Assembly (NCBI GenBank): GCA_017538365.1 | Contig: JAFYIZ010000014.1 | Span: forward strand, 1 to 41,470 | Direction: 5' to 3' | DNA length: 41,470 nucleotides | From: a bacterium | GTDB lineage: Bacteria; UBP6; UBA1177 | In this document: positions 7,457 through 23,909 of the stretch, piece after piece | Position numbering within the stretch: position 1 is the first letter of the stretch | Layout: each line of letters starts with the position of its first letter | Program-made: the position numbers and the translations under genes | Notes under the pieces: model-generated | What the model was told of the DNA's origin: nothing | Databases searched by the model: none | What the model saw: only the letters and a program-made list of their open reading frames with translations

Positions 7457-10400
7457 CTATTCGGCTTTGTCGCTGCATTTCTTTTTAGTCAGCTTCTCAT
7501 ACATCTTGAAAAGCTCGGCTACTACCTCAGATTCACCCATTTTCGGATTGAAGCCGTAAGCCTGCATTACAGCTTTGTCGTTTTCTTTGTGGGCTTTGCG
7601 GAGTTCAGGCGGCATAAAAGTCTCGTCGTACAAATCCGCAAGAGATGAATCGGGATATTTGGCTCTGGCATCAAGGATCGCCTGAGCGGTCTGCTCAATT
7701 TTGGCTTTCTGTGCATCTGTCGGATAGCACCACGGGAAATTGTTGTAAACCAAAGAAGCTGAATAGCGGTATCTGCTTTCAAGTCTGCCACAGACAGCCC
7801 GCATCCAGGCATTATGAACGCTGCTTGTCATAATTCCGAACTCGTAAAGCGTTACATCGGGTATAAGAAGAGTTGCATCACTTGCTATCACTTCACTGCT
7901 TGTAAATCCGATCGGAATATAAATACGATTTTCCGATGAAACTCGGGGAACCAAAAGGTAGTTTCCTTTTTCCGGTTGGCGGATTTCGCCGAAAAGCCAA
8001 GGCGTTTCCGCAAGTTTCCGCGTTGCTGCGCGGGCGCTTGATTCCCTTAATTTTCGAACAGCCCCGATTCTTTGAGCAACGAGCGGCATCCTGCGCAATT
8101 CAGCAGGAGTAGCATCAACAAGCCAGAGGCAGTAACGGATTTTGGAATTTATAAATTCATCAGCACCCAAGAATCGATGTATATATTTTTGAGAAGCAGG
8201 ATCATTTTTAACAAAATCATCGTATTCATCCGCTTCAATAATGAGATTCTGTCCGTCATTCGGCATACTTCCGAAAACCATTTCCGGCACTTCACAAAGC
8301 GGCTTTTTCCGGTTTTCAATAAACAACTCAGGCAAATCCATCAGATATCCATTTATGTTTTTTGCCTCTATTTTCTCATGCTCATTCTCAAAAATTATTT
8401 TCGGTTTTGTATTTTCAGCAACACTGAATCCGATTATCACGCAGTGAACAGTCGCCATATTTTTCTTATCAGTTGTTTCATTCGCCCATTTGAATGTCCG
8501 CCATGCAAAATCAAAATGAAGCCCTTCGGCAAAAAGAGGCTTCCACAAATTTGCGACAGATGCTCCCTGCGTAACGGAGTTCGTCGAAACAAACGCGCAA
8601 CGGGTATTTGTGCCTTTTATCAAATCAAACGCTTTTTTATACCAGCAGCAGACATAATCGAGATCTCCCGCTCCGTGCCAATCCCTGCCGAAAGTAAAAA
8701 TCAGATCTTCCTTCTGGCGTTTTTCCATAAATCTTGCACCGACAAACGGCGGATTTCCGATAATGTAGTCGTAATTCACGAACTTTTTAGCATCTTTTTC
8801 AGGGAATTTCCTTTCGGTGATTTCAGGAGTTACGACATTCAATTCCGTATAATGAGCATTGTATGGAACTTCAGGTTCATGTACACTGTGCGTTCCAAAC
8901 TTTTCATCGATTTTATAGACATTCAGCCTGTCGGCAAAGACACAATCGTTCTTTGCTTCGTTTTCAAGCGTCAACCAGTCCATACGGAGAGCGTTGCCTT
9001 CAACAATAGTTGCACTTGTGGAAAGCGGCAGAAAATCAAGATTCTGTTCGACGATTTCTTCAGTTTCCTTCATCATCTGGCTTTCGGCAATCCAGAGCGC
9101 AGTTTTTGCGACAGTCACCGCGAAATCGTTGATTTCAATGCCGTAAAACTGCGAAATTTTCACTTTTATCGGTGAAAAATCCTCGCTTGAAAGAAGCATC
9201 TGAGAACCGTGAACAACTTTCAGGCATTCGTTTTCCAAGCGTCTCAGCGAAATATAAGTTTCCGTCAGAAAGTTTCCGCTCCCGCAGGCGGGATCAAGGA
9301 ATTTCAAGTTGGCGAGTTTATCGCGGAACTGCTCAAGACGATTTTTTGTTTTCGCCGTCATGTTGAACGAATGTGAAACATCTCTTTGAGATTCAACGCT
9401 CAGCTCAGAATGCCGCGTTCCGACAATTTTCGCAAATTCCGCTTTCAGATCATCCAGAAACAGCGGATCAATCACTTTGTGGATATTTTTAATCGAAGTG
9501 TAGTGCATCCCGCCTTTGCGCCGCGTTTCAGGATTCAAAGTCGATTCAAAAACAGCTCCGAAAATAGTCGGCGAAATTTCCGACCAGTCGAAAGGAGCAC
9601 AGTAATTTACAATGACATCAACTATTTCTTTGGTAAAATTAGGAATTTCTATGCTGCTGTCGGCAAAAAGCCCGCCGTTTACATAAGGAAAAGAGTTCAG
9701 CGTCAAGTCATATTTGTCACGGTTTTCCAATTTTGTATCCAGTGCCTTAAACAGCTTTATGATTCCGTCTCTCACATTAGGCAGGTTGAAGGATTTTATG
9801 TAGTCTTCAAAAGCTGTACGCGTCTCGAAAAGCCCTGCATCTTCGGCGTAAAGGCAGAAAACTATGCGGACGCACAGAATATTGAGACTGCGCAACTGTA
9901 AGTCAGACAGTTTGTCATCTTGAGCATAAGCGAAAGATCTCTCAGATTCTTCGCTTCGCTCAGAATGACGGCTAAGACGGGTTGGCGGAATATATTCTTT
10001 TATCAGCGCGTCATAGAGTTTGCCTACAAGCTCGCCCGCTTTGAGTGAGACCTGTTCTTCAGGCGAAATCGAAGTCTTTTTGGAATCAACCATAAACTGC
10101 AGGCATTCGAATTTATCCGGCAGATCCTCAAGCAGAACCTGAACCGGCTCATCGTGCGGCTTTTCCATGTCGTAGATCAGAAATTCACGGAAATTGCAGA
10201 CAACGATCCAGTCCGGACGCAGCGAATTCGGCATCTCGTCGGCATAACGCTTTGCCTGACGGTAAGGCGTGAGCATTGCGCCGTCTGACTGTTTAACCTC
10301 TTTACGAAGGTCTGTATCAACGCTTTTCTGCTCGATTAAAACCTTGGTTTCGGGAATATAGGCATCAATAAAACTCGTGTGCTTGAGCTGGACTTTCTTT

Positions 10401-10558
10401 TCAAACTCGATGCGCTCTGCAGGATTTTCCATCCCGAGAACTTTTTCTAAAAGTCCTATCCAGAAACGGGCAGTTTCCTGCCTTTCATCCCCTTTGTTTT
10501 TCCAGAAATCCGCAAATTCTTTAGCCGCTTTTCTGCGGTTTGTTGCCGCTTTAGCCAT
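7457..10558 (-). CDS. MmeI-like single-chain restriction-modification enzyme (Type IIL/IIG DNA methyltransferase)
   Basis: A 1033-residue protein combining nuclease, adenine methyltransferase and target recognition. Near the N-terminus 'FIDAYIPETKVLIEQKS' gives a PD-(D/E)XK-type signature, Asp65-X10-Glu76-Gln-Lys78, as in MmeI. A helical connector follows. The SAM-binding motif I 'FLDPACGSGNFL' is near residue 423 and the catalytic motif IV NPPF at 602-605, the gamma-class order expected for N6-adenine methylation. The C-terminal part (about 750-1000) has MmeI-type recognition-domain features such as 'SSVHNAWMRAVCGRLESRYRYS' read in pieces. No separate R, M or S gene is nearby, consistent with an all-in-one enzyme. 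Two in-frame repeat insertions (residues about 197-215 and 382-401) are described separately; both fall between recognised motifs, so the enzyme may be active. A GC-neutral flank and an isolated position fit horizontal transfer. Confidence 0.88.
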   Translation of the reverse strand: MAKAATNRRKAAKEFADFWKNKGDERQETARFWIGLLEKVLGMENPAERIEFEKKVQLKHTSFIDAYIPETKVLIEQKSVDTDLRKEVKQSDGAMLTPYRQAKRYADEMPNSLRPDWIVVCNFREFLIYDMEKPHDEPVQVLLEDLPDKFECLQFMVDSKKTSISPEEQVSLKAGELVGKLYDALIKEYIPPTRLSRHSERSEESERSFAYAQDDKLSDLQLRSLNILCVRIVFCLYAEDAGLFETRTAFEDYIKSFNLPNVRDGIIKLFKALDTKLENRDKYDLTLNSFPYVNGGLFADSSIEIPNFTKEIVDVIVNYCAPFDWSEISPTIFGAVFESTLNPETRRKGGMHYTSIKNIHKVIDPLFLDDLKAEFAKIVGTRHSELSVESQRDVSHSFNMTAKTKNRLEQFRDKLANLKFLDPACGSGNFLTETYISLRRLENECLKVVHGSQMLLSSEDFSPIKVKISQFYGIEINDFAVTVAKTALWIAESQMMKETEEIVEQNLDFLPLSTSATIVEGNALRMDWLTLENEAKNDCVFADRLNVYKIDEKFGTHSVHEPEVPYNAHYTELNVVTPEITERKFPEKDAKKFVNYDYIIGNPPFVGARFMEKRQKEDLIFTFGRDWHGAGDLDYVCCWYKKAFDLIKGTNTRCAFVSTNSVTQGASVANLWKPLFAEGLHFDFAWRTFKWANETTDKKNMATVHCVIIGFSVAENTKPKIIFENEHEKIEAKNINGYLMDLPELFIENRKKPLCEVPEMVFGSMPNDGQNLIIEADEYDDFVKNDPASQKYIHRFLGADEFINSKIRYCLWLVDATPAELRRMPLVAQRIGAVRKLRESSARAATRKLAETPWLFGEIRQPEKGNYLLVPRVSSENRIYIPIGFTSSEVIASDATLLIPDVTLYEFGIMTSSVHNAWMRAVCGRLESRYRYSASLVYNNFPWCYPTDAQKAKIEQTAQAILDARAKYPDSSLADLYDETFMPPELRKAHKENDKAVMQAYGFNPKMGESEVVAELFKMYEKLTKKKCSDKAE
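9357..9414. repeat. Mobile palindromic repeat inside the MmeI-like gene, copy 1
   Basis: The stretch begins GTCATGTTGAACGAATGTG and ends GCTCAGAATGCC; its ends form an imperfect inverted repeat. Translated in the gene frame it reads RHSELSVESQRDVSHSFNMT (residues about 382-401), the kind of peptide known from small dispersed palindromic elements that insert into reading frames without stopping them. It lies just before methyltransferase motif I, in a likely linker. Confidence 0.65.
9914..9969. repeat. Mobile palindromic repeat inside the MmeI-like gene, copy 2
   Basis: A 56-bp unit with left end GTCATCTTGAGC and right end GCTCAGAATGAC, inverted repeats differing at two positions. In frame it encodes RHSERSEESERSFAYAQDD (residues about 197-215). 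This peptide is widely seen as an inserted repeat in unrelated bacterial proteins. It lies in the helical connector between nuclease and methyltransferase and keeps the frame open. It belongs to the same general class as the copy at 9357-9414 but is a different subtype. Confidence 0.75.
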
Positions 10559-13122: not shown

Positions 13123-14883
13123 ATGAAAAAGTCGGTGATTTCAATGCTTTTTGTTGTTTTGTTCCTTTTTATGGCTGCTTGTGACGGCGGTGCCACCAAA
13201 AATTCAATTGACGGAGAGATTGGTGAAAACGGCGATTATTCTGACACAGGCAGTTACAATGACAACTATGACACTACTGATTCTGAAGCCTATGAGCCTG
13301 GGTATGACAACGGCGATACCGGAGCTCCTTATGAACCGGGTGATCCTGCCGATACTGCTTATGAAGACTGGGAAAATGATGACAGCGAGATGTCGGGAGA
13401 CGATATGCCGACTGAACCCACTGAAGAACCCAAGCCGGGAGAACTCATTGAGAACGAATGGGTCGAAACAAAAACTGAAAACACTTCGACTTTCTCGATT
13501 GACGTCGATACGGCAAGTTACACGCTTATCAGAAACTACCTTATGAGCTACAATTACATGCCGCCGAAAGATCAGGTCAGAATTGAAGAGATGGTGAACT
13601 ATTTTGACTACGACTATCCGCAGCCGGAAGAGGGAAAACCGTTCTCGGTAACGATGGAAATGGCCGATTCGCCTTGGAGAAGCGACACCAAACTCGTTAT
13701 GTTCGGGCTTCAGGGAAAAGAACTTGAGCCGGACAAAGTTCCAGCGCACAATCTGGTTTTCCTTATTGATGTTTCCGGATCAATGTACGGTGACGACAGA
13801 CTCGGTCTTCTGCAGAAATCGTTCAAAAAACTCGTCGAAAAGCTCGACAAGGACGACAAAGTTTCGATCGTAACGTACGCAAGCGGTGTCAACACTCTCC
13901 TCGATTCGGTCAGCGGTGACAAAAAAGATGAGATAATCGCGGCGATAGACGATCTCGAAGCTGGCGGTTCGACTGCCGGTTCGGACGGTATACAGAGAGC
14001 TTACGCACTTGCCGAAAAGAATTACAGCAAAGACGCCAACAACAGGATAATCCTTGCTACCGACGGCGATTTCAATGTCGGAATTTATGATACGTCAGAG
14101 CTTGTTTCATACATCGAAGAAGAACGCAACAAAGGCATATATCTCACGATCCTCGGTTTCGGAATGGGCAACTATCAGGATGACAGAATGGAACAGCTTT
14201 CCAACGCGGGAAACGGAAACTACTTCTATGTCGATAACGAAAGAGAAGCTGACAAGATTTTCACCTACGACCTTATGGGAACGATGTTTACTATCGCGAA
14301 AGATGTAAAACTTCAGGTCGTTTTCAATCCTGCGAAAATCGCAAAATACCGCCTTATCGGTTACGAAAACCGCGTTATGGCGAACGAAGACTTCAACGAC
14401 GATACCAAAGATGCAGGTGAAATCGGCGCAGGTCACAGAGTTACGGCGTTCTACGAAGTATTTTTAACTGAAAAACCGGCGGAAACTCCTGAAACCGAGA
14501 CTGACGCTGAAGAAGGCGAAGAACCTGCTGAAACCGATCCGAATGAAGGCGAAGAGGAACCTGCGGCAGAGCCTGAAACCGAATTCGGTGAAGACGATTT
14601 CCTCGTTCTCAAGATGCGCTACAAAGAGCCGGATGCTGATGTCAGCAAATATATGGATACCGTCATGACTTCGGCGAATATCCTTGCTGAAATGAGCCAG
14701 AACATGGGATTTGCTTCGGCAGTAGCAGAGTTCGGAATGCTTCTCAGAGATTCTAAATTCAAGGCTGATTCGAGCTATGATTCAGTTTCGACCCGCGCAA
14801 AGGCGAATATCGGCAAAGATCCGTTCGGTTTCCGCGGCGAATTCCTCGAAATGGTCGACAGAGCTAAATCTCTTGACCACTAA
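13123..14883 (+). CDS. YfbK-like von Willebrand factor A domain lipoprotein
   Basis: A 586-residue exported lipoprotein. The signal MKKSVISMLFVVLFLFMAAC ends in a lipobox with Cys20, followed by an Asp/Tyr/Glu-rich linker (about 25-105). Then comes the domain found in front of vWA in YfbK proteins ('TFSIDVDTASYTLIRNYL', 'VRIEEMVNYFDYDYPQP'). The vWA domain begins 'NLVFLIDVSGSM' with a complete metal-ion site (Asp216-X-Ser218-X-Ser220), followed by 'GGSTAGSDGI' and 'ILATDGDFNVG'. A C-terminal YfbK-type region ends the protein, interrupted by a strongly acidic insert (about residues 450-490). It probably binds a protein ligand at the cell surface or periplasm. GAGG seven bases upstream supports the start. 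Its stop lies five bases from that of the convergent neighbour. Confidence 0.85.
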   Translation: MKKSVISMLFVVLFLFMAACDGGATKNSIDGEIGENGDYSDTGSYNDNYDTTDSEAYEPGYDNGDTGAPYEPGDPADTAYEDWENDDSEMSGDDMPTEPTEEPKPGELIENEWVETKTENTSTFSIDVDTASYTLIRNYLMSYNYMPPKDQVRIEEMVNYFDYDYPQPEEGKPFSVTMEMADSPWRSDTKLVMFGLQGKELEPDKVPAHNLVFLIDVSGSMYGDDRLGLLQKSFKKLVEKLDKDDKVSIVTYASGVNTLLDSVSGDKKDEIIAAIDDLEAGGSTAGSDGIQRAYALAEKNYSKDANNRIILATDGDFNVGIYDTSELVSYIEEERNKGIYLTILGFGMGNYQDDRMEQLSNAGNGNYFYVDNEREADKIFTYDLMGTMFTIAKDVKLQVVFNPAKIAKYRLIGYENRVMANEDFNDDTKDAGEIGAGHRVTAFYEVFLTEKPAETPETETDAEEGEEPAETDPNEGEEEPAAEPETEFGEDDFLVLKMRYKEPDADVSKYMDTVMTSANILAEMSQNMGFASAVAEFGMLLRDSKFKADSSYDSVSTRAKANIGKDPFGFRGEFLEMVDRAKSLDH

Positions 14884-14888
14884 TCAAA

Positions 14889-17800
14889 CTATTTACAAGT
14901 CATAATATCAAGAATGACCTGATCGGTCTTTTCCATTCCTTCCGAAGCGACAGTCGCTAAGTTTTTGATCGTTTTTTCGATGTCGCGCTCGATTATTCCG
15001 TCAGTTTCAGAAATTTCGATGTTTTCAATAGCCAAAAGTGCGCTCTGCAAAGCTGCGTTTATCGTTGTCGAAACTTTGAGTGCGCAGCCCGCCTTCGCGC
15101 CGTCGCAGATCATGCCGGAGATGTTTCCGATCATGTTTTTGATTGCGTAGTTTATCTGCGGAAGTCCGCCGCCCATGAGGTAGACTATTCCGCACGAAGC
15201 ACCGGTCGAAGCTGTGACTGTGCCGCAGAGAGCAGAAAGTTTCGACATGAATTCTTTCAAGTGTATCGCGATCAGATTGCCCAAATAAAGTGCGCGGATG
15301 AGTTTTTCTTCACTTGCACCTAGTCTTTCGGCAGTTGCAACTATCGGCATCATTACGGTGATTCCCTGATTTCCGCTGCCCGAATTGCTCATTACGGGAA
15401 GTGTGCAGCCTGCCATTCTCGCATCACTTGCCGCAGCGGTGAGAGCCATCGCGTAGTTTGCAAGATCGTCGCACAAAATTCCTTTTTTGACATTTAGACG
15501 AAGGGTTTTGCCGACGCGCAACCCGTAGTCGCCGCTTAAGCCTTCGTGAGCTATCCTTTTATTCATTTCGGCGCCTTCAAGAACGTAGCGGATCTTCTCA
15601 AGCGGCACTTTGTTGATGAAATTCCAGATCCCTTCGACAGTCATGTGGTATTCCTGCGTTTTTTCCTCGCTTTCCTTGTCGAATGAAAAGGCATTGCACG
15701 ATTTCTGCGAAACGATCTTTCCGTTGAGTTCAGTGAGAACTATGTTCGTGTGGCTGCCGCAGATAAGGGTACGCGCGCAGTTTTTGCCGCTGAAGCAAGC
15801 CGCTTCGATGTAGAGTTTGTCGACCTGCTCTTTGAGCGTGATCGCTATTTTTTCTTCTCTTACCATCTTTTTGGCTTCTTCGATCTCTTCGGGAGTAACA
15901 TCGCTCAGCACTTCAAGCTCTTTTGCCGGGTCTCCGCCCGTGATGCCGAGTGCAGCCGCGATCGGTAGTCCTACCATCCCTGTTCCCGGAATGCCGACAC
16001 CGAGGCCGTTTTTGATGATGTTTCCGCTGAGGGCGATCTCCGCTCTTTCGATTTTGCCGCCTAAAAGTTTCGTCGAAGTCGCCGCCGCAAGTGCAACCGC
16101 AATAGGTTCAGTGCAGCCGAGCGCCGGAACAACCTCGCTGTTGAAAGCATCGATGTAAAGCTGGTAATCCATCTCATCCTCTTTTTCTCTATTTTCAACT
16201 ACTTTAAAATCAGTAAAAACGCGGTATTCGTAGGCTTTGAGCTGCATGAAAAAGCCGTGCTCGAAAATATCTTCAGTTTTTATCGTGTATTCATTGCCCG
16301 AGATAAGTTCCTTGAAGTGTACAAAAGTTCCTTTTTCTTGTTTAAGTCCGAGTGCAAAATCGAGATTTATCCGCTTCAAAGCTCCGTCAGATTTATCTAA
16401 CCAAGCGCAGCTCTGCTTGATCCAGCCTGAAGTCTCCGCAAATTTGTTGTGGTAGAAAACAAGCACTTTGCTCTCTCCCCAGCCGTTTGAATATGCGAAA
16501 ACATTCTCATCGACCGAGCCGTCAGCTTTGTAGAAATCGTAGAAGTGGAAGTCGTCAACGTGAGCAAAAAGACGGCGAAGGTGAAGAAGCGGGAAAATCT
16601 CGCGTTCGTGCCGCTCGACGAGAGCCTGATTGACTTCCTCGTTTTTGTAGGCGCGGCGGTATTCCATGCCGTATTTTTCGGAAAATCCTTCGATCTGACC
16701 GTGCCCGAACATCGGAAGACCGGGCATCGTGATCATAAGCAGCGTAACACCGAAGTATTTGTCATTGTCGCCGAACTGCGCGACCGCCGTCTCCTCATCG
16801 GGGTTGTTGAGGAAGTTGACATACCTTTCGAGAATGTGCGGGTCGAATTCGAGAACGCTTTTTACAGACTGCCTGTATTTCGCATTTTCCTCGTTTTTCA
16901 TAAAGTTCATGAACGCGCTGTTGTAGACGCGGTGCATTCCCAGAGTCCGCACGAAATATCCTTCCATAAGCCAGAAAGCCTCGGCCAGAAGCAGCGTTTC
17001 GGGTGCCTCTACTGCGACTCTGTCAACGACTTCGCGCCAGAATTCTTTCGGGAAAAGTTTGTTGAACTCTTCATTCGTAAGACCGTGTTCGGCCCGCGAT
17101 GCAATGTCGCCGCCGCTTCCCGGTTCGGGGAACCAGAGCCTGTGATAGTGCCTTTTTGCAAGCGTCATCGCCGCATCGAACCTGATGACGGGGAAGTTTT
17201 TCGCGATCTTTATTATGGTCTGAATGACCTGTTCGCGGACATCTTCACGCATATAGTTGAGCTGCGCCGTATCGTTCCACGGCATGCATGTTCCGTCGTT
17301 TCCGTGGTAGATGTAGTCGGTCTTTCCCGTTCTGAAATCGACCCGTTTGAATGTGACCGCCGCATCGCTTTTTGAATAGTAGTGGTCTTCGATGTAAATG
17401 CCGATATTCGGGTCGCTCGAGAGGTTTTCGCCGTTGTAGGTGTATGCGGGGAAGGGCGGGGTATCAGTCGAAATGAACCATTCGGGATGCTCGCTCACCC
17501 ATTTTGAATCAATTGCTGTGTGGTTGGGGACCATGTCGCTTGCAAGTCTGATACCGTATCTCCACGCCCTTTCGCGAAGATTCTGCATAGCCGATTCGCC
17601 GCCTAATTCCGCAGCTATCTCGTAGTCGTAAAGCGAGTACGCGCTTGCCGCAGCCTCGGGATTTCCCATTATCTGCTTGATGCGCCTCGATGCCTTGCTG
17701 CGCTCCCAAAGCCCGATGAGCCAGAGAGCCGTAAAACCGCGTCTGGACAAGGTTTCGAGCTCTTCATCGGGAATTCTGTCGAGCGTGTGGATGTCAGCTG

Positions 17801-18746
17801 AATATTTTTTTGAAAGCTGATCTAACCAGACAAATATATTTTTTGCAATCATTACAACGCGCGGCATCCAGAGAGAATCTTCGGAAAAATTTTCGTTTTC
17901 AGGATCCCCGTCGCCCCAGCCTGAAAGCAGCGAATCACGCGTAAGTGCAGGAAAATCTGCGTTTGAGACCGGTCCGAAAACAGGTTTTGTCTCTTCTTTT
18001 ATGATGTCGGCAGAGAGGAGAAGCATTTTCGAAAAACGCGCCGCTATCTTTACTCCCCAGTTTTTGCGGATGAATTCAAGCTGACCCGCCAAAGAGTCAG
18101 GAGAAGCCTTGAACGGAGCGCGCAGAAGTTCGAGAACGGAGATTTTTTCTCCTCTCAGACCGATTTTTGGGCTGCTTTCGAAAAAGTTCTCGGCAACATC
18201 AAAAAACTTGCCGTAAGCGGGATTCTTTTCAAGAGTTTCGTCACCGAAAAGCTCTTCAAACTGCGAAAAAGCGGGGTTTTCATTGGCAATTTTAAGAAGA
18301 ATGAGTTCTTCGAGTTCGGTGAGTTTGTTTTCAGTTCCGTTGGTCGAAGCGGCAAAAAATTCAGCCGCGCTCATTCCGCCTGTCATAACCTCATTAGTCG
18401 GAAATTCTTTGATAAAATCGACCATTAAAGCCTTTGTTGAATCACTGCCAAGCTCATTTTCCGCCTTTTCAAACAGTTTTTTTAAGAAATCGGGAAAAAT
18501 CTCAGTCCTATAAAGATGGAAAATATAGTGCTCGATCTCGTCGATAAGCCCCATCGCATAAAGGTTTCCCGGAGTTATGTGCTTTTTGCTCTTCTCTTCG
18601 GCAAACTTCGTATTGAGTTTGTGGGCAAAATCTTTTGCCGCCGCAAAATCGGCGAAAACGACATTTCCCGAAATCGAAAAAAGTTCTTTTGAAAGCTGAA
18701 AACGCTCTCTCGAAGCGCGTTTTACATGAAAATGATTCGTCTGCAT
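14889..18746 (-). CDS. GH13 alpha-amylase-like enzyme joined in frame to an L-cysteine desulfidase (UPF0597/CyuA)-like domain
   Basis: One uninterrupted 1285-residue frame. Residues 1 to about 855 form an amylase-family protein: an N-terminal helical extension (about 300 residues), then the TIM barrel with region I 'SDMVPNH' (Asp404, Asn408, His409), nucleophile region 'RFDAAMTLAKRH' (Asp524), acid/base Glu589 in 'LLLAEAFW', and Asp662 in 'GDND', where the usual His-Asp is Asn-Asp. Residues 859-1285 match the full 427-residue length of the UPF0597/CyuA desulfidase family ('ALGCTEPIAVALAAA', 'NSGSGNQGIT', 'ICDGAKAGCALKVS'), which uses an iron-sulfur cluster to release sulfide, pyruvate and ammonia from cysteine. 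The junction carries its own ribosome-binding site and ATG, so both a fusion and a separate desulfidase may be made. No signal peptide is seen; the location is cytosolic. Confidence 0.85.
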   Translation of the reverse strand: MQTNHFHVKRASRERFQLSKELFSISGNVVFADFAAAKDFAHKLNTKFAEEKSKKHITPGNLYAMGLIDEIEHYIFHLYRTEIFPDFLKKLFEKAENELGSDSTKALMVDFIKEFPTNEVMTGGMSAAEFFAASTNGTENKLTELEELILLKIANENPAFSQFEELFGDETLEKNPAYGKFFDVAENFFESSPKIGLRGEKISVLELLRAPFKASPDSLAGQLEFIRKNWGVKIAARFSKMLLLSADIIKEETKPVFGPVSNADFPALTRDSLLSGWGDGDPENENFSEDSLWMPRVVMIAKNIFVWLDQLSKKYSADIHTLDRIPDEELETLSRRGFTALWLIGLWERSKASRRIKQIMGNPEAAASAYSLYDYEIAAELGGESAMQNLRERAWRYGIRLASDMVPNHTAIDSKWVSEHPEWFISTDTPPFPAYTYNGENLSSDPNIGIYIEDHYYSKSDAAVTFKRVDFRTGKTDYIYHGNDGTCMPWNDTAQLNYMREDVREQVIQTIIKIAKNFPVIRFDAAMTLAKRHYHRLWFPEPGSGGDIASRAEHGLTNEEFNKLFPKEFWREVVDRVAVEAPETLLLAEAFWLMEGYFVRTLGMHRVYNSAFMNFMKNEENAKYRQSVKSVLEFDPHILERYVNFLNNPDEETAVAQFGDNDKYFGVTLLMITMPGLPMFGHGQIEGFSEKYGMEYRRAYKNEEVNQALVERHEREIFPLLHLRRLFAHVDDFHFYDFYKADGSVDENVFAYSNGWGESKVLVFYHNKFAETSGWIKQSCAWLDKSDGALKRINLDFALGLKQEKGTFVHFKELISGNEYTIKTEDIFEHGFFMQLKAYEYRVFTDFKVVENREKEDEMDYQLYIDAFNSEVVPALGCTEPIAVALAAATSTKLLGGKIERAEIALSGNIIKNGLGVGIPGTGMVGLPIAAALGITGGDPAKELEVLSDVTPEEIEEAKKMVREEKIAITLKEQVDKLYIEAACFSGKNCARTLICGSHTNIVLTELNGKIVSQKSCNAFSFDKESEEKTQEYHMTVEGIWNFINKVPLEKIRYVLEGAEMNKRIAHEGLSGDYGLRVGKTLRLNVKKGILCDDLANYAMALTAAASDARMAGCTLPVMSNSGSGNQGITVMMPIVATAERLGASEEKLIRALYLGNLIAIHLKEFMSKLSALCGTVTASTGASCGIVYLMGGGLPQINYAIKNMIGNISGMICDGAKAGCALKVSTTINAALQSALLAIENIEISETDGIIERDIEKTIKNLATVASEGMEKTDQVILDIMTCK
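16170..16190 (-). promoter_or_regulatory. Internal ribosome-binding site and ATG at the amylase/desulfidase junction
   Basis: On the minus strand AGAGG followed by five bases precedes ATG (16172-16170), codon 859 of the long frame. Translation from here would give exactly one complete UPF0597/CyuA protein (MDYQLYIDAFNSEV...). The upstream amylase domain ends just before ('VFTDFKVVEN'). The arrangement looks like two genes whose separating stop codon is absent. Confidence 0.65.
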
Positions 18747-18774
18747 GCTCCCTCCGGTTAAAAAAGAACAAACG

Positions 18775-18802
18775 AGTATAATTGCATCTTTTTTGATGTC
18801 AA
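18775..18802 (-). promoter_or_regulatory. Strong sigma70-type promoter of the amylase-desulfidase gene
   Basis: TTGACA (18802-18797), a 16-base spacer and TATACT (18780-18775) lie 28 bases before the start at 18746, which itself has GGAGGGAG. The block GTTGACATCAAAAAA is identical to that of the yqeY promoter. Confidence 0.7.
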
Positions 18803-18994: not shown

Positions 18995-19828
18995 ATGGAT
19001 TTAGTGAAGTATGACGAAAATTTGTTCGAGAACATTAAGCATGTGAACGAGTACGGGCAGGAATTCTGGTATGCGAGGGAATTACAGCCGTTGCTTGAGT
19101 ATTCACAATGGCGACGTTTTGCTGAGGCGATTGAACGAGCCAAAACCGCGTGTGCCAACAGCGGGCATGATGTCGCCGACCATTTTGCCGAGGTCGGCAA
19201 AATGGTCGAAATCGGTTCGGGAACAAAACGCAATGTTGAAGATTATGAACTTTCCCGCTACGCCTGCTATCTGATTGTAATGAACGGAGATCCTCGAAAA
19301 GAAGTCATCGCGCTCGGTCAGACTTATTTTGCGGTGAAAACGCGTCAGCAGGAACTTATTGAAGATTATGAAAAACTGACTGAGGAGCAGAAGCGTTTAG
19401 CTATCAGAAACGAGATGAAACGGCATAATATCGCACTTGCCGATGCAGCCCACAAAGCGGGCGTTCAGCAGCCGATTGATTACGCTGTTTTTCAGAATTA
19501 CGGTTATATGGGATTATATAACGGACTTAAAGCGCAGGACATAAAGGAACGTAAAGGTTTGAAGAAAAACCAGAACATCCTTGATTTTATGGGAAGCACC
19601 GAACTTGCCGCCAATCTCTTTCGCGCAACGCAAACGGAAGAAAAACTTCGCCGCGAGAATATTCAGAACAAAAACGAAGCCAACCAGACCCATTACGAAG
19701 TCGGCAAAAAAGTCCGTCAGACCATAGCCGATCTGGGCGGCACTATGCCGGAAGACCTTCCGACACCCGAAAAAAGCACCAAACAGATTGAAAAAGAGCA
19801 GGAAAAGAAAAAAATCGAAGACAAATAA
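18995..19828 (+). CDS. dinD: DNA damage-inducible protein D (DinD)
   Basis: A 277-residue protein matching DinD in length and order. The N-terminal BRO-N-like part contains 'NEYGQEFWYARELQPLLEYSQW', the phrase typical of DinD. The middle has 'DYELSRYACYLIVMNGDPRKEVIALGQTYFAVKTRQQE', in pieces, and the C-terminal half 'GLYNGLKAQDIKERKGL' and 'ILDFMGSTELAANLFRATQTEEKL'. In E. coli DinD is SOS-regulated and interferes with RecA-mediated strand exchange; the family is often carried by mobile regions. It ends in a Lys/Glu tail. The ribosome-binding site GAGAGGAGAGAG directly precedes the ATG. It stands alone between minus-strand genes, consistent with acquisition as a single gene. Confidence 0.93.
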   Translation: MDLVKYDENLFENIKHVNEYGQEFWYARELQPLLEYSQWRRFAEAIERAKTACANSGHDVADHFAEVGKMVEIGSGTKRNVEDYELSRYACYLIVMNGDPRKEVIALGQTYFAVKTRQQELIEDYEKLTEEQKRLAIRNEMKRHNIALADAAHKAGVQQPIDYAVFQNYGYMGLYNGLKAQDIKERKGLKKNQNILDFMGSTELAANLFRATQTEEKLRRENIQNKNEANQTHYEVGKKVRQTIADLGGTMPEDLPTPEKSTKQIEKEQEKKKIEDK

Positions 19829-19909
19829 GAATCACAGACAGTAGTTAACGAAATTCATATCGACAAAAATCTCCTGAAAAATCAAGCCCTTGTTTTGTGA
19901 AACCGTGCG

Positions 19910-22228
19910 CTAATCAGCATTGCGGACACAAAGAACGTAGAGAGAGTAAATTGGATCTTTGATGAAATTTCCGACATCGCCGTTTGGGAAGTTCAATGTT
20001 ACAGCGTGTGCCGGAGCTCCTGAGAGAGTTGATGAAGACCAGAAAGAGTTGTTTTGTATATCAGGAAAGTCCGAAAGAGGTTCGCTTTGTTTATCATAAT
20101 TTAATAGTGACGCCAATTCATTTTTATTGGGTAAGCGCCAATCCGAATAGTTGGCATAATTTGAATCATCACAGTATTTGAGCGCTTCCCGCCAACTTTT
20201 TGACACAGACTCTTTCTGCCACATTAGACCTGTTGTAGAATCTTTAACGACCTCCTTTCCGCTCTCTGATGTTGTCGTGAAAATACCTTTTGACATTATG
20301 TCGCCATGGACACAAAGAACTTTAAAACTTCTTGTTTTTTCGGTGTAATAACTTGTTTTCCCGTGAGAAGTCTGAAATTCATAAGCATATTGAGTATTGC
20401 CGAAATATTCTGTTGATGTCCATAGGTATCCGTCATCAGGTATATTGGTAAAATTTGAATTTATTGCAGGTTTGTATCTGCTGTTGTCTACAATAGTCAA
20501 AAGCTCCGAAGGATTCGGAACACGCCAGTTGTTAATTCCTGCGTAATTCGAGCTGTTCAATTCATTGCAGTGTGTCGCACGGTTTGCCCAAGTGTATGTG
20601 CTTGAGGAGGGTGACTGTTCCCAGATAAGTCCGGTATTGTTGTCAATGACTGTGCCTGCCTGCGCTCCAGTTCCCAAAGTAAAACTCTGCGCTACACATT
20701 TGTTTGAGTTGTGCGCATCCTGACCGTAAAAATCGTCACTCGATGATGACTGGCAGGTAATCTCCGAAGATTCGTTGTAGCATTTATTCAGGCCTGTGCA
20801 GATGTTGCCAAGTGTAAGCGGTTTATCAATACAACCCTTTTCTGCTCCACGCCAATAATATCCTGAAACGCATTTGCAGGAGTAATTCTGCCATGAGTGT
20901 GCCGTGCAATTTCCTGTCGAATTTGAAAGACCGTTGCATGGAGCGGATTCGCAGGGATTTACACAAGCCGAACCATTCCAGAAATAACCGTTTTCGCATC
21001 CGCAGGAATAATTTGTTGCACTTATTGCAGAGCATATTTCTGTTGAATTTGAAAGACCGTTGCATGGATCGGATTCGCAGGGATTAACACAAGTTGAACC
21101 GTTCCAAAAAAAGTCTGTGACGCATTTAAAGTGGCATTCTCCTGCGTCTTCGCTGTATACTGTATTTACAGAGGAAGTCCATTCTCCGCTTACATATTCC
21201 TGAGTATACGATGATTCGCCGTTCCAAACAGTATTGGCAGGTTTATCACTGCAAGGAACGGTTTTTGTACACTTGTTTTGCGAGCTGTTCCATGTTCCAT
21301 TTGCCGCGGCGCATTCTTCTTCAGCAGTAATTTGTGTACTGCCGTCGGCGTTTCTGACACAACGGACATTGTAGTTAAGGACGAAGTTGTCGTTGGAGCG
21401 AACGCTTCCGCTGTCGAAATGCACGTCCCATGCGTATCCATACTCATTTGATAGAATAGAGGAAGACCAGAGTACATCCGTGTCTCCGAATTTACTGTAT
21501 TTACCAGTTGAATCCGATGAACAGCCGCTGCATGCATCATTTCGGCAGTCAGTATATGACAGACAGGAATCGGTAACACCGCATGAACTACCTGTCTGAG
21601 TTGCAGAGCAATTCTGAATAAGTGTTCTCAGCTCGCTGATATTCGGTAGGTGCCAGCCGCTGCTGTAACCGCCGTAATTTGATGAATTTAAACCCGAGCA
21701 GTGATCTTTTGCCGCCTGCCAAGCCATAGTACCGGATGCCTTTTCTGACCAGATGTAGCCGGTTGATGAATCCTGGCACGGGAATGATGTCGTTGACGCG
21801 CTGCACTCGGGAAGTGTTGTCTGACCGCTGATATTGTCTGAATCATCCATTTCGTCTTCATCCGACTCGTTATCAGTTTCAGTGTCGGTATCTTCAACAG
21901 GCTTTGTATCTGTGTCGGAATCATCCGAACCGGTATCCGTATTGTCATCATGAACGGAGTCGCCTTGATCCGGTGCGGTATCTGTCGAATCATTGTCGGT
22001 TATGCCGGAATCTGATGAATCATCAGTGTCAGTTTTTTCATCTTCGTCGTTACCTGGCTCAGTGTCGGTTTTATCCGAATCGTCGTCAGTTTCATCAGAA
22101 TCGCTGTCGTTATCCGGAATGTATGCTTCGGAATTTTTATCGTACGGATTATCAAACTTGGTGTTCAGATCGCATGAAAGCAGAAAGAACAATGAAATAA
22201 TAAATAAAATCAAAAATTTGATTCTCAT
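19910..22228 (-). CDS. Surface lipoprotein with three DUF1566 (Lcl-type) domains and EGF-like repeats
   Basis: A 772-residue lipoprotein: signal MRIKFLILFIISLFFLLSC with Cys19, then an Asp/Thr/Ser/Glu-rich spacer (about 38-140) that should extend the protein from the membrane. DUF1566/Lcl C-terminal-type domains are seen at about 145-300 ('GYSSGWHLPNISELRTLI', 'DVLWSSSI', 'VRCVRN'), 515-645 ('NTGLIWEQ', 'NNWRVPNPSELLTIVDN') and 655-772 ('TGLMWQKE', 'YSDWRLPNKNELASLL', 'VLCVRNAD'). Between the first and second are Cys-rich EGF-like modules (about 355-470) with 'NPCES.PCNGLSNST' twice. The Lcl domain is linked to collagen-like adhesins in Legionella, so adhesion or ligand binding is plausible. 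AGGAGG five bases before ATG supports the start. It follows the CsgG-like gene by nine bases and is probably co-transcribed. Confidence 0.8.
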   Translation of the reverse strand: MRIKFLILFIISLFFLLSCDLNTKFDNPYDKNSEAYIPDNDSDSDETDDDSDKTDTEPGNDEDEKTDTDDSSDSGITDNDSTDTAPDQGDSVHDDNTDTGSDDSDTDTKPVEDTDTETDNESDEDEMDDSDNISGQTTLPECSASTTSFPCQDSSTGYIWSEKASGTMAWQAAKDHCSGLNSSNYGGYSSGWHLPNISELRTLIQNCSATQTGSSCGVTDSCLSYTDCRNDACSGCSSDSTGKYSKFGDTDVLWSSSILSNEYGYAWDVHFDSGSVRSNDNFVLNYNVRCVRNADGSTQITAEEECAAANGTWNSSQNKCTKTVPCSDKPANTVWNGESSYTQEYVSGEWTSSVNTVYSEDAGECHFKCVTDFFWNGSTCVNPCESDPCNGLSNSTEICSAISATNYSCGCENGYFWNGSACVNPCESAPCNGLSNSTGNCTAHSWQNYSCKCVSGYYWRGAEKGCIDKPLTLGNICTGLNKCYNESSEITCQSSSSDDFYGQDAHNSNKCVAQSFTLGTGAQAGTVIDNNTGLIWEQSPSSSTYTWANRATHCNELNSSNYAGINNWRVPNPSELLTIVDNSRYKPAINSNFTNIPDDGYLWTSTEYFGNTQYAYEFQTSHGKTSYYTEKTRSFKVLCVHGDIMSKGIFTTTSESGKEVVKDSTTGLMWQKESVSKSWREALKYCDDSNYANYSDWRLPNKNELASLLNYDKQSEPLSDFPDIQNNSFWSSSTLSGAPAHAVTLNFPNGDVGNFIKDPIYSLYVLCVRNAD
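20914..21165. repeat. 126-bp tandem direct repeat encoding EGF-like modules
   Basis: The sequence starting CTGTCGAATTTGAAAGACCG at 20914 recurs as CTGTTGAATTTGAAAGACCG at 21040, an offset of 126 bases (42 codons). The first roughly 60 bases of each unit are nearly identical, including TTGCATGGA.CGGATTCGCA; the rest has diverged. Recent internal duplication of one EGF-like module is the simplest explanation. Confidence 0.75.
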
Positions 22229-22237
22229 GTTAACCTC

Positions 22238-23323
22238 CTACCATCTCAACGCGAACTGAATTGTTCCGTCTGCCGGATTTGCTCCAAGCGAGAGGTTGTA
22301 TTTTTTATTAACCTCTTTTTCACCTTCAAACTCGATGCTGTAAAAAGTTATGCCTGTTGCAATCAGGGCAACGCCGACACCGATTCCGACACCACCTAAA
22401 ATCAGGTAGGTTTTGTATTTGCTTTCGGCATCAGAAGTCTTTTTGCGGAAATGGTCTATCGTTTCCTGATCCCGCGCGTTTCGGTATTCTTCCAGATATT
22501 TGTCGTGGTCTTTTTTCGCTTTGCTCATCCCGTAGAATGAAACGCCGCCGAGAGCGCCGACAACGACCCCGGCAACAAGTGTGGAAGTTGCAATTGCAAG
22601 CCTTTTGCTTCTTCCGGCCTGGTTGAGTTCGTCTTTGATTTTACGGGTTTCTTCTTCTGCCTTTCTTTTTTCTTCCTCAGCTTTCTGTTGTTCCGCAGCT
22701 TTCTGCTGTTCTTCAGATTTTCTTTTCTCTTCTTCGGCTTTTATTTTTTCTTTCTTTTCTTTTTCATCGTTGCTTGTGTCAGGTTTAACTGTTTCAGGCT
22801 GTCTGTTTTCCTGAACCGTCACTGTTCCGGCATGGCGGCTGATTGTCGTTCCGACAATTTGTTCCACGATTTTGTCGAGAGCCAGGGCAAGCGATCGTTC
22901 AGAACCGTCGAAAGTCTGCTTCGCTCCGACGATGGTTGCTTCTTTTGCAAGGTCGATAAGCTCGGAAGTTATTGTGTAAAATCCGCCGAAAAAACTTATT
23001 GTTGTTCTCAGAATCGTATCTGCCGACAAAGCCTGACCGAGCGGAATCTGACAGTTTTTGTCATTGCATGCTTTGTAGGATTCCTTTTTCATCTCCTTGA
23101 TCATTGCCTTTTCCTGGCGCTCTTTTGCGATAACGATATACTTGTTTGTACTGACAAACGCGCCGCGGATATATTCTGTTGCACCTGCAAGAGTTTCCGG
23201 AGAGAGTGTTCCGCTCAGATCCTCAAACTCCATAACGGCCAGCTTCTGCTTGTCATCATCACCGTCGGCAAAAAGCTGTAACGAGAGCAAACAGAACAAG
23301 AAAACCAAAGACAATTTTTTCAT
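22238..23323 (-). CDS. CsgG/LpoB-like exported protein with coiled coil and two membrane helices
   Basis: A 361-residue protein starting MKKLSLVFLFCLLSLQLFA, a Sec signal. Residues 25-165 ('LAVMEFEDLSGTLSPETLAG', 'YIVIAKERQEKAMIKEM', 'ADTILRTTISFFGGFYTITSELIDL' in pieces) follow the CsgG/LpoB/TolB-N pattern of a small periplasmic domain that scores activity as 'CNDKNCQIPLGQALSAD'. A highly charged Lys/Glu/Gln coiled coil follows (about 190-235), then hydrophobic helices near 238-262 and 304-328. This architecture recurs in deltaproteobacterial genomes next to surface lipoproteins; its function is unknown. ATG at 23323 with GGAG is chosen over an ATG ten codons upstream because it directly starts the signal peptide. 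It lies nine bases upstream of the DUF1566 lipoprotein gene. Confidence 0.65.
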   Translation of the reverse strand: MKKLSLVFLFCLLSLQLFADGDDDKQKLAVMEFEDLSGTLSPETLAGATEYIRGAFVSTNKYIVIAKERQEKAMIKEMKKESYKACNDKNCQIPLGQALSADTILRTTISFFGGFYTITSELIDLAKEATIVGAKQTFDGSERSLALALDKIVEQIVGTTISRHAGTVTVQENRQPETVKPDTSNDEKEKKEKIKAEEEKRKSEEQQKAAEQQKAEEEKRKAEEETRKIKDELNQAGRSKRLAIATSTLVAGVVVGALGGVSFYGMSKAKKDHDKYLEEYRNARDQETIDHFRKKTSDAESKYKTYLILGGVGIGVGVALIATGITFYSIEFEGEKEVNKKYNLSLGANPADGTIQFALRW

Positions 23324-23405
23324 TTTCTTCTCCACGAACCCAAAAAACCGCAAAATTGTAGGTGCTTAAAACGTAATGGCAAGAATTTTTGGAAACAAAT
23401 CGATT

Positions 23406-23843
23406 TTATGAAAGAGCTTTTTTAACGAGTCCGCTGGCGGTTTTGCCGTCAAACTGACCGTCGTATTTTTTCTTGAGTTCAGCCATGACTGTCCCCATCT
23501 GACGCGGCGACTTGTCGGGAAGAGTTGCAACAATTTCTTCAATAATTTTTGCAAGTTCAGCTTCGTCAAGCTGTTTTGGAAGAAGTGATTCAAGAATTTC
23601 TTTTTCGCGAAGGACCTGGGTTTTGTCCTTGCCGACTTCTTCCATCAGAGTGAGAGTTTCGTTCACGTTTTTGAGGAATTTTTTGATCATCGCGACCGTT
23701 TCGGCGTCCGTCGTTTCGCGGTTTCCGTCGTTTTTGCCGACCATAACGGCTTCCGCAACCAGAGTCGAAAGGAGATTTCCCTTGACAGTATCTTTCTCAA
23801 GTTTCGCCTTCATCATCATTTTTCTAAGTTCAGCAAGCAACAT
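23406..23843 (-). CDS. GatB/YqeY domain protein
   Basis: A 145-residue soluble protein of typical YqeY length. It opens MLLAELRKMMMKAKLEKDTVKGNLLSTLVAE, then 'DAETVAMIKKFLKNVNETLTLMEE', 'EILESLLPKQLDEAELAKII' and the C-terminal 'DKSPRQMGTVMAELKKKYDGQFDGKTASGLVKKAL' in pieces. The two helical halves match the tRNA-binding tail domain of GatB, and stand-alone YqeY proteins are thought to aid tRNA-dependent amidation, although this is not firmly shown. ATG at 23843 has GAGG with six-base spacing; the frame runs 22 codons further upstream but that part lies within the promoter. It is divergent from rpsU, a common neighbour of yqeY in bacterial genomes. Confidence 0.92.
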   Translation of the reverse strand: MLLAELRKMMMKAKLEKDTVKGNLLSTLVAEAVMVGKNDGNRETTDAETVAMIKKFLKNVNETLTLMEEVGKDKTQVLREKEILESLLPKQLDEAELAKIIEEIVATLPDKSPRQMGTVMAELKKKYDGQFDGKTASGLVKKALS

Positions 23844-23881
23844 TTTACACCTCGCATTTAAAACCAATAAAAAAACGAAAA

Positions 23882-23909
23882 AGTATAGTTGGAAGTTTTT
23901 TGATGTCAA
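23882..23909 (-). promoter_or_regulatory. Promoter of yqeY
   Basis: TTGACA (23909-23904), a 16-base spacer and TATACT (23887-23882) lie 38 bases before the start. The sequence GTTGACATCAAAAAA is shared exactly with the promoter at 18775-18802. Confidence 0.7.

Follow-up and report, generated by a model that had tools for sequence, protein, structure and literature searches.

The locus studied here raises the question of whether two unrelated enzymes that share a single reading frame are made as one protein or two, or are an artefact of the sequence. The window (the whole stretch of 41,470 nucleotides that was analysed) belongs to a genome of 2.3 Mb that is 97.6% complete and assembled in 49 contigs, and its genus consists of gut bacteria that are uncultured. 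A preliminary description, made from the sequence of the window, had placed an amylase-like enzyme and an L-cysteine desulfidase-like enzyme in one frame. This was confirmed. The ORF starts with ATG and contains 1285 codons without an internal stop, and both Pfam matches are above their curated cut-offs (Alpha-amylase, 42.1 bits against 22; SDH_alpha, PF03313, aa 942-1280, 226 bits against 26.4). The features of the locus are shown in Table 1.

Table 1. Features of the fusion gene and its flanks in the window.
Feature	Position	Strand	Remarks
Fusion gene	14889..18746	-	1285 aa + stop; orthologous joined ORF in same-genus species
Residues 1-850	16197..18746	-	N-terminal, GH13-type catalytic and C-terminal beta regions, with homology to a widespread uncharacterised family
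Alpha-amylase catalytic match (PF00128)	16650..17759	-	aa 330-699; putative triad D524, E589, D650
Linker ENREKEDE	16173..16196	-	aa 851-858; sequence and length vary among species
Internal GAGG, Shine-Dalgarno-like site	16178..16181	-	5 nt upstream of the internal ATG; unchanged in 12/12 species
Internal ATG (Met859)	16170..16172	-	Invariant in 12/12 species; equals the start Met of stand-alone relatives
CyuA/UPF0597-type L-cysteine desulfidase unit	14889..16172	-	427 aa; C878, E880, R1110, C1174, C1214, C1221
Ribosome-binding site of the fusion start	18747..18757	-	CCGGAGGGAGC
Sigma-70-type promoter-like site	18775..18802	-	TTGACA-N16-TATACT; 11/12 consensus match only

The same join was looked for in 14 other genomes of the genus. 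Eight of them have the joined gene over residues 1-1285, and three more span the junction but are truncated by a contig end or a gap. In G007 the gene is interrupted by contig ends, and no match was found in G002 and G010 (59% and 72% complete). With the window included, the joined ORF is present in 12 of the 12 species genomes with an assembled junction, which share ancestry and are not 12 independent observations. None of them exhibits a stop at the junction. The break of G001 at aa 239-245 was considered as a frameshift, but it adjoins ambiguous bases (X in the translation) and was read as an assembly gap. The close relatives are gut metagenome genomes from goat, yak, cattle, red deer, reindeer, and other hosts, and two of them are labelled UBP6.

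The preliminary description had left room for a sequencing or assembly error at the stop and for the recent loss of a stop codon between two overlapping genes. The second unit starts precisely and has its own ribosome-binding site, as either account would expect. However, the same join is found in separate assemblies from separate projects, down to an overall identity of 66-67% to G005, the most distant member of the genus. Synonymous sites are saturated towards G005, and the join is old. The sister genera carry the two genes on different contigs and the first gene has a further domain of ~310 aa, and therefore a single stop loss cannot give the fusion. Both accounts were rejected as extremely improbable. 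The desulfidase part is 81-95% identical among the same-genus genomes with the join. The dN/dS values are 0.04-0.26 over all parts, where the catalytic and desulfidase parts have 0.04-0.15 and the N-terminal part has up to 0.26. By these ratios, both halves are under purifying selection. The true fusion that had been listed among the options is supported by this selection and by the conservation of the join.

The origin of the fusion was examined by comparison with its non-fused relatives. The GH13 half is present in 50 of the 386 genomes and, outside the genus, is found mostly in frames of ~1120-1300 aa. The non-fused amylase-like protein of the sister genera and of another family of the order has 1173-1256 aa and ends in a conserved helical domain of ~310 residues. 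Within the order, the non-fused relatives with a complete gene carry this tail domain, and a profile detects it in 20 of the 28 genomes that come from other parts of the domain Bacteria. It was looked for anywhere in the 15 genomes of the genus and was found in none. The desulfidase of the sister genera is a separate gene on a different contig from the GH13-type gene (433-434 aa, 73-75% identical). Desulfidases outside the genus are never joined to another frame among the 386 genomes, where their frames have 402-486 aa and one more is cut by a contig end. The fused desulfidases form one clade against the stand-alone ones with support of 99/96. The first desulfidase tree, with distant outgroups and branch lengths near 10, was unusable and was replaced by the tree that gave this support.

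The fused clade, the absence of the tail in the genus, and the separate desulfidase outside the genus together indicate that a single replacement of the tail by the desulfidase took place in the genus ancestor. On these sequence comparisons, the event is a single domain replacement in which a desulfidase stands in place of the ~310-aa helical tail. The fusion reading of the preliminary description thus stood as far as the join is real, while the replacement of a conserved C-terminal domain is not visible from the window alone. We regard the fusion as established to be genuine, conserved, genus-specific, and formed by domain replacement. In the common ancestor of the genus, a CyuA-type desulfidase gene, which carried a ribosome-binding site of its own, would have replaced the C-terminal helical domain of the GH13-type protein in frame, and the old 5' leader of the desulfidase gene would have become the linker or part of it. 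As a mark of the vacated site, the genomes of the genus were scanned for the 560-aa gene that neighbours the desulfidase in the sister genera. It is absent there, and the site was not located. No report of an amylase-desulfidase fusion was found in the literature. As far as these tools show, the architecture is new and the component enzyme families are known. The locus offers a clear natural example of how domain replacement can join two unrelated metabolic enzymes. The join is old enough for stable selection to show, and the start signal of the second enzyme has been kept.

The first half resembles the GH13 alpha-amylase superfamily in its PF00128 match, its putative triad, and its region I (DMVPNH). 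The triad residues occupy the GH13 triad positions without variation among 16 aligned relatives. E589 and D650 were also aligned to GH13 chains, and D524 was assigned by motif. The half differs from the superfamily in belonging to an uncharacterised subgroup, in its N-terminal region of ~300 aa, and in region IV, which reads NNPDE. The Asp of NHD is kept there and the His is not, so that NPD is found in place of NHD. The NHD of region IV is usual in GH13 and is not strictly required. From its motifs, the half is predicted to perform hydrolysis or transfer of alpha-glucan. The AlphaFold model of residues 1-857 has a pLDDT of 63, is low in the TIM barrel expected of GH13, and is too poor for a fold search. 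Within its own GH13-type family, the half differs in that the customary C-terminal helical domain has been replaced. That domain was modelled well in the non-fused relatives (pLDDT 89; L064:1501-2418 and relatives), and it has no match among PDB folds (best E 0.3) or in Pfam. The case draws attention to a GH13-type family that is widespread and uncharacterised, has a helical tail that lacks a Pfam or PDB match, and is often found beside YqeY in the order.

The second half had been described as beginning at a full-length family start. This agrees with its alignment, almost from its beginning (residue 866), to the solved L-cysteine desulfidase chains 9he0 and 9fsl. The catalytic C878 and E880 of the N-terminal CTE motif are kept in 12 of 12 species. 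The catalytic Cys and Glu of this motif are absent in serine dehydratases. The anion-binding R1110 and the cluster cysteines C1174, C1214, and C1221 are found in every species in which this region is assembled. These six residues are the equivalents of the catalytic Cys23 and Glu25, Arg223, and the cluster cysteines Cys287, Cys329, and Cys336 of MmCyuA, respectively (PMC12647591). The half has full-length homology to the CyuA/UPF0597 family (Methanococcus maripaludis MmCyuA, PDB 9he0/9fsl; Escherichia coli YhaM/CyuA), and shares with it the catalytic Cys and Glu, the Arg223 equivalent, and the three [4Fe-4S] cysteines. The known members of that family are stand-alone proteins of ~400 aa, whereas the unit described here is preceded by 858 residues of another enzyme. 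The half is predicted by homology to convert cysteine to pyruvate, ammonia, and sulfide. It is the sole SDH_alpha gene of the window genome. The active-site residues of both halves are kept, and both enzymes look intact. No signal peptide is evident by eye on the fusion protein, and therefore both halves would act in the cytoplasm.

The join had been said to have no linker. However, the amylase-family homology reaches to about V850 and M859 is the first residue of the desulfidase, which leaves eight residues between them, and the linker has 7-10 mostly different residues among the species. The ribosome-binding site that had been noted before the second part was found, where the coding strand reads AAAGAGG-ATGAG-ATG. 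Stand-alone relatives start at the Met equivalent to Met859, and two of three have AAGGAG or AAGGAGG before that start. Among the 26 conserved in-frame start-like codons, Met859 is the only one with a Shine-Dalgarno-like core in 12 of 12 species. Its pairing with an assumed anti-Shine-Dalgarno sequence, not read from the window genome, averages -6.35 kcal/mol. This is the strongest of the 26 codons and ranks within the highest 2-3% among all codon positions, and the native starts of the window have -2.4 to -10.2. Glu856 is encoded by GAG throughout, which is true of only 3 of the 61 invariant Glu columns. For mRNA structure, the junction ranks between the weakest 0.2% and the weakest 50% of windows, with no consistent signal, and it is not uniformly unstructured. 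The internal start signal alone is suggestive and not decisive.

One reading of the gene is that only the full-length bifunctional protein is made and that the internal GAGG-N5-ATG is an unused leftover of the old gene start. An open frame throughout and the conservation of both halves agree with this reading. Other internal sites also score almost equally, since M594 (-5.9) and M1132 (-5.6) have conserved pairing energies similar to that of Met859 and M1035 has a Shine-Dalgarno-like core in 11 of 12 species. A Glu-rich linker favours GAGG by chance. However, a leftover should decay, and the GAGG, its spacing, and Met859 are unchanged in 12 species while the residues and length of the linker have changed. 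We consider the full-length protein as the only product to be possible but the less likely outcome.

The preferred reading is that one transcript probably gives two products, the bifunctional fusion of 1285 aa and a free CyuA of 427 aa (probability of about 0.62). Transcription would start at the promoter that precedes the GH13 part. A promoter-like site is found directly upstream of the fusion start in the window genome, and none was found on the minus strand near 16170-16200. Initiation at the first ATG would yield the bifunctional protein, and initiation at the retained Met859 site would probably yield the free desulfidase. The fused and free chains could pair because the characterised CyuA is a homodimer. 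The use of the internal start, the enzyme activities, and the mixed dimers are predictions from the sequence. The programmed dual product suggested earlier thus gains an invariant internal ribosome-binding site and Met859, and falls short of proof.

In-frame genes with two products exist among phage endolysins, where both forms can assemble (PMC9430671). If the internal start is used, the fusion gene would resemble them in having one ORF, two products with a common stop codon, and possible mixed multimers. It would differ from them in that both endolysin products serve one function, whereas the short product here is predicted to be an entire enzyme of an unrelated kind, gained through the fusion. 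A more elaborate proposal is that the fused and free forms assemble together, that these mixed complexes fix how much desulfidase is tethered relative to free, and that the desulfidase now fills the part in structure or oligomerisation that the helical domain played before it was lost. We regard this proposal as speculative and rather improbable. The fusion lets one ask whether fused genes go on making the free partner, and why.

The reason for the join was also considered. A Rosetta-stone fusion would couple glucan and cysteine metabolism, for example by tying the supply of pyruvate or sulfide to the use of glycogen, and it is not exclusive with either product pattern. Its long conservation in the genus and the purifying selection on both halves agree with such coupling. 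However, the fusion is found in one genus only among 386 genomes, and glucan and cysteine enzymes have no known common substrate. The desulfidase and GH13 genes are also not neighbours in any non-fused relative examined, which is evidence against a general functional link. Functional coupling is considered doubtful. No functional or metabolic link between the two activities was found, and the join is thus more likely to reflect shared expression than channelling. The capture of expression by a rearrangement that kept the old ribosome-binding site would be the simplest account.

The neighbourhood of the fusion gene was compared among the relatives. A YqeY-like gene (23406-23909 in the window; L044, L046, L048, L050, L051, L052, and L058) is immediately upstream of the GH13-type gene in two families of the order, which suggests that both form a conserved operon. 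YqeY is directly upstream in G006, G005, and the sister genera, whereas the window has 18995-23353 between the two genes. This interval consists of a Bro-N gene, an Lcl_C-domain protein, and an unassigned ORF. The order in G005 (L051:1699-7614) is YqeY, the fusion gene, and CTP synthase. These genes overlap by ~10 bases each, and therefore the fusion gene is in a tight operon there. On the other side in the window, the gene of a YfbK-like von Willebrand domain protein (13123-14883) converges on the fusion gene, and the gene ends are 5 bases apart. An MmeI-type restriction-modification gene is found at 7457-10558. It has the same neighbours in G009 (L057) and is missing from that place in G006 (L058).
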